The notes under the pieces: model-generated
Database searches by the model: none
Told to the model about the DNA's origin: nothing
Seen by the model: the letters and a program-made list of their open reading frames with translations, nothing else
Translations under genes and position numbers: made by a program
Shown here: positions 58,318 to 60,857 of the stretch, in pieces
Position numbering within the stretch: position 1 is the first letter of the stretch
How the letters are laid out: each line of letters starts with the position of its first letter
Origin: Methanomicrobiales archaeon
GTDB lineage: Archaea; Halobacteriota; Methanomicrobia; Methanomicrobiales; JACTUA01
DNA length: 64,000 nt
Reading direction: 5' to 3'
NCBI GenBank assembly: GCA_029907705.1
Contig: JARYLJ010000003.1
Coordinates: 1 to 64,000, forward strand

Positions 58318-58902
58318 TCAGTCCGCTTTCAGGCGCTTGAGAATCCAGGCGATGTTCTGCCCGAGCGACTGCATCGTTCTGATCCCCTCCTCATCCCTCT
58401 CCACATCTCCGGGCTTCCATCCGATGCCGATATTCCAGTAGGTGGAGCCGACCACGATCATCTGCCCGATCAGGAAGAAGTGATTGATTGTATCGAATGC
58501 ATGCATGCCTCCTGCCCTCCTCACGGCAACAACGGCCGCACCCACCTTTCTTCTGAAGAGGTCCCCATTCACCCTCGCCACCATGCCCGAGCGGTCGATG
58601 AACGCCTTCATCTCGGCGGATACATCCGAGAAATAGGTGGGTGAAGCGAGGATGATGCCATCCGACGCAGCCATCTTCTCGATGCAGCTGTTCACGATGT
58701 CGTTCCTGATGATGCACCTGCCGTCCAAGTTCTCCCTGCATTTCATGCAGGCCGTGCAGCCGCGGATCCTCTTTCCGGCAAACTGGACCATCTCGGTTCC
58801 GATCCCTTCCTGCTCCAGCTCCTGAAGGACGTATCTCACAAGCCTCGCCGTATTGCCATCCTTTCGTGCGCTGCCGTTGAATGCGATGACCTTCATATCC
58901 AT
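58318..58902 (-). CDS. Iron-sulfur flavoprotein / NADPH-dependent FMN reductase-like
   Basis: MDMKVIAFNGSARKDGNTARLV; CTACMKCRENLDGRC (CX2CX2CX7C); ILASPTYFSDVSAEMKAFIDRSG. Confidence 0.88.
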   Translation of the reverse strand: MDMKVIAFNGSARKDGNTARLVRYVLQELEQEGIGTEMVQFAGKRIRGCTACMKCRENLDGRCIIRNDIVNSCIEKMAASDGIILASPTYFSDVSAEMKAFIDRSGMVARVNGDLFRRKVGAAVVAVRRAGGMHAFDTINHFFLIGQMIVVGSTYWNIGIGWKPGDVERDEEGIRTMQSLGQNIAWILKRLKAD

Positions 58903-59051
58903 ACAGGAGAGAGGGCCGTTGATCAGTGATAAACCTGCAGTATCTGCCCTGTGCAACTGCGTCATTGATGACCAGCTGTGCAGAACGAATCCGCGAAACA
59001 GTTCAGATGGATTTAAATATCTGTTTGAGAAGAAGTACTCGTGTAGGACGA

Positions 59052-59149
59052 ATGACAGAAGAATCCAGCACGTCAAAAAATATTGCGATTCTGAACAGCT
59101 TCGGGTTCTTCTTCTTTAGTTAGGGGACCGAACAACGTTCGGTTCCCCT
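59052..59149 (+). promoter_or_regulatory. Candidate Phe-rich leader peptide and hairpin upstream of the symporter
   Basis: 23-codon ORF MTEESSTSKNIAILNSFGFFFFS* at 59052-59123, then inverted repeat aggggaccgaac-aac-gttcggttcccct at 59122-59149; TATA-like atttaaatat at about 59012. Confidence 0.45.
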
Positions 59150-59179
59150 GATATTGGCATTATACAGGCAGGAAAGATT

Positions 59180-59302
59180 ATGCTCGGTATCGACGATCCG
59201 CAAATCTGGCTTGGTTACCTCCTTGCGATAGGTTTCGCACTGTGGTGCCTGTTGTACGGACTGCTGAACTGGAACAGAGGGGAGGGCGGCGATGGCAGTT
59301 GA
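59180..59302 (+). CDS. Unlisted 40-aa symporter small accessory protein
   Basis: MLGIDDPQIWLGYLLAIGFALWCLLYGLLNWNRGEGGDGS*; single TM; overlaps the symporter ATG at 59292. Confidence 0.75.
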   Translation: MLGIDDPQIWLGYLLAIGFALWCLLYGLLNWNRGEGGDGS

Positions 59303-60857
59303 CACACTCGTCTTCGCAGCGATCACCATTGTCTACCTCGTGGTGACCATGGCTCTGGGTTACCTCGGGTACCGGCATACCCGGGAGACGGAGGACTACC
59401 TCGTCGCAGGACGCCGGATACATCCGGCCATCCTCGCCCTCTCTTACGGAGCGACGTTCATCAGCACTTCAGCGATCGTGGGGTTCGGAGGTGTCGCCGG
59501 ACAGCTGGGCATGGGTCTGATATGGCTGACGGTCTTCAACATCGGTGTGGGGATATTCATCGCTTTCGTCGTCTTCGGGACGAAGACACGTGAACTGGGA
59601 CAGCGGATGAAGGCACTCACCTTCCCGGACCTGATGGGGAAGGTATACAGATCCTCCTTCATGCAGTATGCAACAGCCGCGATCATCGTGATCGGTATGC
59701 CCCTGTACACCGCCGCCATCCTGATAGGCGGAGCGAGATTCATTGAGGAGACGCTCAGAATCGATTATAATCTTGCTCTTCTCGGCTTCGCCCTGATCGT
59801 CGCAATCTATGTCGTCCTCGGTGGACTCATCGCCGTGATGTACACCGATGCACTGCAGGGGAGCGTCATGCTCGTCGGTATGACGCTGCTCATCTTCCTC
59901 ACCTATATCACTCTGGGGGGTGTGGTGGAAGCACATTCTGCCCTCAATGCGATGAGCAATCTCGTGCCGGCGGCACTGAAGGCGGCCGGGCACACGGGAT
60001 GGACGAGCATGCCTGCGCTCGGTTCACCCATATGGTTCACTCTGGTCACCACGATGGTGCTGGGGGTGGGCATCGGCGTGCTGGCACAGCCGCAGCTGAT
60101 CGTCCGTTTCATGACCGTGAAGGACCGGCGTTCGCTGAACCGTGCGGTCTTCGTCGGCGGCCCCTTCATTCTGATGATGACGGGCGTTGCCTTCACTGTC
60201 GGTGCGCTGACCAACGTATACTTCTATACAAACAGGAATATGACCGCTCTCGAGGTCGCGGGGGGTAACGTGGACAAGATCATCCCCGCGTACATCAACA
60301 GCGTAATGCCCGATATCTTCATCGTCATATTCATGCTCGCCCTCCTTGCGGCGGCGATGTCAACCCTTTCCTCCCTGTTCCACACGATGGGAACCGCGCT
60401 CGGCTACGATATCTGGGTCTATACGAGCGAGGGCAGGCCCTCTCTGGGTGCGAGCCAGCGGGGGATTGTGCTGATGATCCTCGTGAGTGTGCTTCTCGCC
60501 TACGTGATGCCGGGGGGTATCATCGCGAGGGCGACGGCGATGTTCATGGGCCTCTGCGCATCCGCATTTCTACCCGCGTTTGCATACGGCCTCTACGCGA
60601 AGAATCCCTCCACATTGCCGGCAAGGGTGAGCCTGATCACCGGTAGCCTCGTGTGGTTCCTGTATACCGTGCTCGTTCACAAGGCTGAATCCGAGATCCT
60701 CGGGATCTCGAAGGCGCTCTTCGGGACGGTGAGCATCCTGCCGATGCCCTGGCCGGTCGTCGATCCGCTCATCGTCGCGCTCCCCGCCTCCATACTGGCC
60801 CTTCTCATCGGGATACAGGTGGGAAAAGAAGGCAGGAGTGGGCGGATTCCGCAATAA
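59292..60857 (+). CDS. Sodium:solute symporter family transporter
   Basis: 13+ TM helices; ETEDYLVAGRRIHPAILALSYGATFISTSAIVGFGG. Confidence 0.93.
   Translation: MAVDTLVFAAITIVYLVVTMALGYLGYRHTRETEDYLVAGRRIHPAILALSYGATFISTSAIVGFGGVAGQLGMGLIWLTVFNIGVGIFIAFVVFGTKTRELGQRMKALTFPDLMGKVYRSSFMQYATAAIIVIGMPLYTAAILIGGARFIEETLRIDYNLALLGFALIVAIYVVLGGLIAVMYTDALQGSVMLVGMTLLIFLTYITLGGVVEAHSALNAMSNLVPAALKAAGHTGWTSMPALGSPIWFTLVTTMVLGVGIGVLAQPQLIVRFMTVKDRRSLNRAVFVGGPFILMMTGVAFTVGALTNVYFYTNRNMTALEVAGGNVDKIIPAYINSVMPDIFIVIFMLALLAAAMSTLSSLFHTMGTALGYDIWVYTSEGRPSLGASQRGIVLMILVSVLLAYVMPGGIIARATAMFMGLCASAFLPAFAYGLYAKNPSTLPARVSLITGSLVWFLYTVLVHKAESEILGISKALFGTVSILPMPWPVVDPLIVALPASILALLIGIQVGKEGRSGRIPQ

Follow-up and report, generated by a model that had tools for sequence, protein, structure and literature searches.

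The window analysed here, a stretch of 64,000 nucleotides of archaeal DNA taken at its full length, carries a sodium:solute symporter gene preceded by a small accessory ORF and, further upstream, by a short leader ORF with a Phe-rich end. The features of this region, in order along the forward (+) strand, are as follows.

59012–59019, + strand: TATA box TTTAAATA, from the sequence; the leader ATG at 59052 lies 40 nt beyond its first base.
59041–59046, + strand: 5′ strand of helix P1 (GUGUAG), in the predicted mRNA 5′ end and leader ribosome-binding region; outer helix of the window MFE fold.
59052–59123, + strand: leader ORF of 23 codons with stop TAG at 59121–59123, from the sequence; frame open in 57/57 representative loci.
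59100–59117, + strand: Phe-rich codons TTC GGG TTC TTC TTC TTT; Phe positions conserved, T/C changes at third codon positions only.
59121–59150, + strand: hairpin P2 (UAGGGGACCGAAC-AAC-GUUCGGUUCCCCUG), which takes in the leader stop; from fold energy and covariation.
59160–59165, + strand: 3′ strand of P1 (UUAUAC), ending 15 nt 5′ of the accessory-ORF AUG; from the window fold.
59166–59172, + strand: Shine-Dalgarno-like AGGCAGG of the accessory ORF, from the sequence; orthologues have GGAGGT, GAGGT or AGGTG here.
59180–59302, + strand: symporter small accessory protein, 40 aa; NCBIfam NF045580.
59292–60857, + strand: sodium:solute symporter (SSF), 521 aa; Pfam PF00474; overlaps the accessory ORF by 11 nt.

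The accessory ORF, which adjoins the SSF gene, scores well above the cut-off of 35 bits for NF045580 (65.1 bits, E 4e-18), and the symporter matches the Pfam SSF family with an E-value of 1e-46. These matches confirm the small symporter subunit and symporter proposed in a first-pass annotation of this DNA, and the sequence also agrees with its description of a TATA element at about 59012 and a 23-codon ORF (MTEESSTSKNIAILNSFGFFFFS, then the stop) that has five Phe within its final seven residues. Measured against solved structures and curated families, the symporter is no more than a distant relative of characterised ones, and it reached no substrate-specific NCBIfam cut-off. The best TATA-like 8-mer starts 36–44 nt before the leader ATG in 49 of 56 representative loci, and the predicted transcript start is most likely about 5–12 nt before this ATG, which would make the leader the first ORF. 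A gene for a flavodoxin-like FMN reductase runs divergently on the minus strand (58318–58902), with 150 nt between its start and the leader ATG; the short intergenic stretch thus holds two promoters. Rfam covariance models gave no match to 58900–59320 at E-values up to 1, and no second copy or repeat of the element was found within the same genome.

We compared 99 distinct orthologous symporter loci, 88 of which carry the same leader, ending F-x-F-R/S-stop on a hairpin, with all six sampled families of Methanomicrobiales represented. A motif rule (TTT, AGN or CGN, then TAG or TAA followed by GG, 80–300 nt before the symporter) identified 84 of the 99, where the ORF ends in Phe-Arg or Phe-Ser and has a plausible start some 20–40 codons upstream. 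Four further leaders were found by eye (L022, L061 (FFFFR-stop), L073 and L111), the last of them from Methanocorpusculum, where the peptide ends FFFFRFN before a TAA stop. The start codon is ATG, or TTG in Methanospirillum. The first-pass annotation had named conservation of the Phe run and hairpin at orthologous loci as one point on which its reading could fail, and the comparison finds both to be conserved. Among the 11 loci without a scored leader, seven belong to Methanomassiliicoccales or other Thermoplasmatota, in which the leader is absent, and two (L078 and L091) have no usable upstream sequence. Unrelated short Phe ORFs stand upstream of the accessory ORF in two Methanomicrobia loci, L047 (...RCFFIPVQNF-stop) and L099 (...RRFFFLRFC-stop); in L099, the stretches directly ahead of the Phe run (GGGACGCC) and of the accessory ATG (GGCGTCCC) are complementary to each other. 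At another locus (L113:840-1350, minus strand, genome G008) the leader is intact, ending FFFFFR at the stop, and the symporter ORF is short of about 340 internal residues in frame, owing either to a real deletion or to an assembly fault.

A second batch of 40 stretches, several of them re-fetched copies of known loci, extended the leader to nine more Methanocorpusculum-type loci (L205-L213), and most of the other stretches have it too; all eight newly fetched Methanocorpusculum-type loci with a P2-like stop context carry it. Elsewhere in the phylum, 39 sites from other families, among them Methanosarcina-like and Methanocella-like ones, showed no comparable Phe leader. In the leaderless Methanosarcina-like set (L165-L204), GCTAACA/GTTAACA-type motifs, defined by a loose pattern, occur shortly 5′ of the accessory gene at 19 of 39 sites, perhaps as the operator for a DNA-binding regulator used instead of the leader. 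Within genomes, the exact core motif is found in at most one copy, so that the element is tied to the symporter locus, and a reversed-pattern control found none. Only one accessory ORF was present when we looked for further ones with other leaders in the same genome, and these genomes have no conserved Phe leader at pheA (PDT) or pheS and no Trp leader at trpE. Judged from these genomes, the leader is a private device of the symporter operon. Upstream of trpE in two of them (L271 in G024 and L275 in G005) there are palindrome-like stretches, TGTATAAATATGTACA and GTATACAAAAATGTATATATG, which hint at an operator for a repressor and not at a leader peptide.

For codon-level comparisons we used 57 representatives less than 80% identical to each other (some counts are over 56); these loci share descent, so that nominal p-values overstate independence, and the patterns hold across genera. 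Though the loci were picked partly by their stop codon, the openness of the frame upstream played no part in the picking, and not one of the 1254 codons in the leader frame is a stop, compared to 39 and 71 stops in the other two frames, which are open in only 23 and 5 loci. Phe is found at codon -2 in 57/57 loci, at -4 in 54, at -5 in 38 and at -6 in 34, and the last ten residues include at least three Phe in 55 of 56 representatives and at least four in 47. When pyrimidine-only codons from -9 to -3 are considered, the T:C counts at first, second and third codon positions are 205:10, 199:16 and 73:142. T/C changes are thus confined to third positions, which shows that the peptide itself is conserved, and not merely a pyrimidine tract. 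The last codon is Arg in 49/57 loci, spelled AGA, AGG or CGN, and the terminal residue can be R, S, N or P; codon -3 is free. Loci such as L005 and L010 have lost the Phe at -4 and kept nearby Phe, and in Methanocorpusculum, where the stop is TAA, the hairpin is still adjacent. Codon -2 (59115–59117 in the window) is TTT in 56/57 loci, though other Phe codons favour TTC; together with AG and TAG this TTT makes up a conserved UUUAGNUAGGG, constrained at the nucleotide level. The N-terminal half of the peptide shows no conservation and the length varies from about 20 to 40 codons, and an unconserved N-terminal half is what is expected of a leader. Outside the locus, equally Phe-rich short ORFs number 11 in 1.36 Mb of single-strand sequence. 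To judge by the rarity of such ORFs and by the order-wide arrangement, the leader ORF is no chance ORF, and we consider it very probable, from the open frame and the pattern of substitution, that it is translated and under selection.

The RNA around the leader is predicted to form two helices. P2, the hairpin that the first-pass annotation had placed over the leader stop, is borne out by its folding energy in the window (-17.7 kcal/mol, z = -4.0, with none of 200 shuffled sequences as stable). Across the loci the leader stop falls within P2 or at its base. Since MAFFT misplaced the 3′ arms of P2 in alignment, pairing was tested by comparing the energies of cognate and permuted arms; cognate P2 arms average -18.3 kcal/mol, and exchanging arms among species weakens this to -14.7 (z = -11.5). 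The annotation had missed the other covarying helix, P1, which is added here. In many species GGUAAAC, the predicted first bases of the mRNA before the leader AUG, pairs with GUUUACC just 5′ of the accessory Shine-Dalgarno, and compensatory changes are seen, for instance, in L020 (GGUAUUUU/AAAAUACC), L062 (GGUAAAU/AUUUACC) and L032 (GGUAUU/AAUACC). Across 56 representatives, the comparison of cognate with permuted P1 strands gives z = -8.8, or -7.5 without the GGTAAA class, and controls taken from promoter DNA, the leader body, small-ORF codons and reversed sequence give z near 0. P1 is present in 37 of 56 unconstrained folds, its 3′ end lying mostly 14–16 nt before the accessory AUG where it is detected, and it closes the MFE fold of the window (59041–59046 with 59160–59165); Methanoculleus and a few others have a weak P1 or none. 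An SD-like AGGU of the leader (24/56) and often the leader AUG are paired within P1, which abuts the accessory Shine-Dalgarno site without covering it. We also tried unmasking of this Shine-Dalgarno by a stalled ribosome, which had no effect in silico: simulated ribosome masks left the accessibility of the accessory initiation region (-14 to +12) unchanged, so that any effect of P1 must act on the upstream flank or kinetically.

We lean, on balance, towards reading the element as a leader peptide that regulates the genes of the accessory subunit and the symporter, in the proposed form through P1 and translation. Of the parts of this proposal, Phe decoding as the sensed signal seems likely, and control by P1 at the level of translation is tentative, with chances we would put below even. 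Ribosomes would occupy the leader directly upon its transcription. When charged tRNA-Phe is plentiful, they would clear the leader fast, P1 would close and initiation would drop both at the leader and at the accessory and symporter genes. When Phe is scarce, they would slow on the Phe codons, with P2 against their front, and would line up as far as the leader start; the queued ribosomes would keep P1 open and the flank of the accessory Shine-Dalgarno free, so that the accessory protein would be made, and the symporter with it through the 11-nt overlap. The likely purpose would be uptake of Phe or of an aryl-acid precursor. The proposal draws on the conserved Phe end, on the position of P2, placed to meet a ribosome there, and on P1 joining the leader start to the accessory flank. 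Its weak point is that one ribosome stalled by itself would leave the leader start uncovered, so that queueing is needed, and the direction of the response to Phe is a guess. Also counting against it are the unchanged accessibility under simulated ribosome masks, the weak or missing P1 of Methanoculleus and some others, and the lack of Phe leaders at pheA and pheS.

The main rival is arrest by the nascent peptide, in which the F-x-F-R-stop tail would stall the ribosome at the stop, perhaps aided by a small molecule as for TnaC, and so keep P2 unfolded. Near-invariant Phe at codons -4 and -2, with Arg or Ser at -1 and a free codon -3, is what such a tail might look like, and the stop codon is embedded in P2. 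However, the Phe enrichment extends over the whole run rather than to specific positions, as loci that lose the -4 Phe and keep others nearby illustrate, and the terminal residue varies; we therefore regard arrest as unlikely.

We hold transcription attenuation to be more doubtful still. Here a slowed ribosome would shield the U-rich Phe codons from aCPSF1/FttA, and when Phe is plentiful the run would be exposed and transcription would end before the accessory gene. The UUY codons are indeed U-rich and the leader would be the first ORF, and aCPSF1, a general terminator in methanogens, binds U-tracts; it needs U4, however, and preferably two such tracts (PMC8716108). The annotation had called the coding strand U-rich and suited to archaeal termination, but though it is pyrimidine-rich, its longest U run in the window is 3. 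The same is true of the Phe region in 21 of 56 representatives, the window included, and two U4 tracts are present in just 10 of the 56; Phe is written mostly as UUC, even though UUU would extend the tract. The Phe run as a terminator was rejected on U-tract length. Beyond the run, P2 is followed in the window by AUAUUGG with no U-run, and the interval from the stop to the pre-SD region contains a run of at least four U in only 18 of 56 representatives. Nor did we find a conserved antiterminator/terminator switch: only P1 and P2 covary, and alternative pairings are at the permuted level. One candidate, pairing of the P2 5′ arm with the pre-SD region, had z = -3.6, which falls to -0.5 once the overlap with the P2 3′ arm is removed. 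With no alternative pairing and no U-tract, attenuation of transcription of the pheA type is not supported, so that of the annotation's proposal the conserved Phe-rich leader and hairpin before the symporter stand, the idea of symporter control by a Phe-rich leader peptide is supported, and the likeness to a bacterial pheA-type transcription attenuator is not.

Two further readings set the leader-peptide function aside. A conserved untranslated RNA or protein-binding motif, consisting of UUUAGNUAGGG and the hairpin with the ORF incidental, would account for the extra nucleotide-level conservation at codon -2, but is very improbable given a frame open at every representative locus, the third-position pattern, and the changes from AGR to CGN and from TAG to TAA. 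The ORF might instead encode a small protein with a function of its own, as an additional symporter subunit or a signalling peptide and not a cis-acting leader; this would suit its conservation beside another small subunit, but is hardly credible for an ORF with so variable an N-terminal half and length, and with ends built into conserved RNA helices.

The preferred reading, that of a leader-peptide regulator acting through P1, can be placed beside several known systems. The Phe leader-peptide attenuators of bacteria are pheL-pheA and pheM-pheST of enterobacteria, and the element resembles them in having a small ORF ahead of an operon, near the 5′ end of the transcript, in which Phe codons are strung together towards the stop. 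It differs from them in its archaeal host, in having a transporter downstream instead of pheA or pheS, in lacking a conserved terminator/antiterminator or U-run terminator, and in the long-range P1 that joins the leader start to the accessory flank. A similar pairing is found in the E. coli trp leader, where the leader ribosome-binding site pairs with a distal leader segment, as it does here with a distal segment of the same RNA; there, however, the pairing accompanies a terminator, whereas in our element the partner segment flanks the Shine-Dalgarno of the first gene. In ermC-type translational attenuators and in the TnaC/SpeFL arrest peptides, the position of the ribosome on the leader alters RNA structure at the next gene, as it would here; a difference is that no conserved helix was found to sequester the Shine-Dalgarno itself, which P1 abuts without covering. 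The regulated pair belongs to the NF045580 accessory protein and SSF symporter families, and we found no report on regulation of the NF045580 family or accessory protein in the open-access literature.

What the symporter carries can be approached through the genome. It encodes prephenate dehydratase and two proteins with a phenylacetate-CoA-ligase C-terminal domain, and so can probably make Phe and perhaps builds aromatic amino acids from imported aryl acids, a known route. An importer of Phe or phenylacetate that senses Phe would match this picture. Gene neighbourhood gave no substrate hint in the form of a conserved partner gene; a nearby pterin dehydratase gene, which the first-pass annotation had thought compatible with a link to aromatic amino acids, is also present in L113, from the same family, and was not recognised as recurring across genera.

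Leader-peptide attenuation is a textbook bacterial mechanism, and to our knowledge regulation after transcription initiation is scarcely documented in archaea; our search, which covered the open-access literature, brought up no archaeal example of ribosome-mediated control through a leader peptide. Translated upstream ORFs do exist in methanogens: of the 314 small ORFs newly identified in Methanosarcina mazei, about 10% are located in 5′ UTRs, where they may be uORFs (PMC11456600). Our comparison suggests that these archaea control a transporter by sensing how the ribosome handles Phe, a strategy so far essentially bacterial. Just short of an even chance, in our estimate, is the fuller claim of an order-wide archaeal ribosome-sensing switch, in which the leader start pairs with the flank of the first gene's ribosome-binding site and Phe-slowed ribosomes gate translation of the transporter, a layout unseen in bacterial attenuators. 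Leader-peptide control here would be a known class of mechanism, extended to another domain of life and built on an RNA layout that is new. If true, it would make testable whether archaea read translation speed for gene control, and would suggest that Phe or an aryl acid is what this symporter, uncharacterised though widespread among methanogens, takes up.
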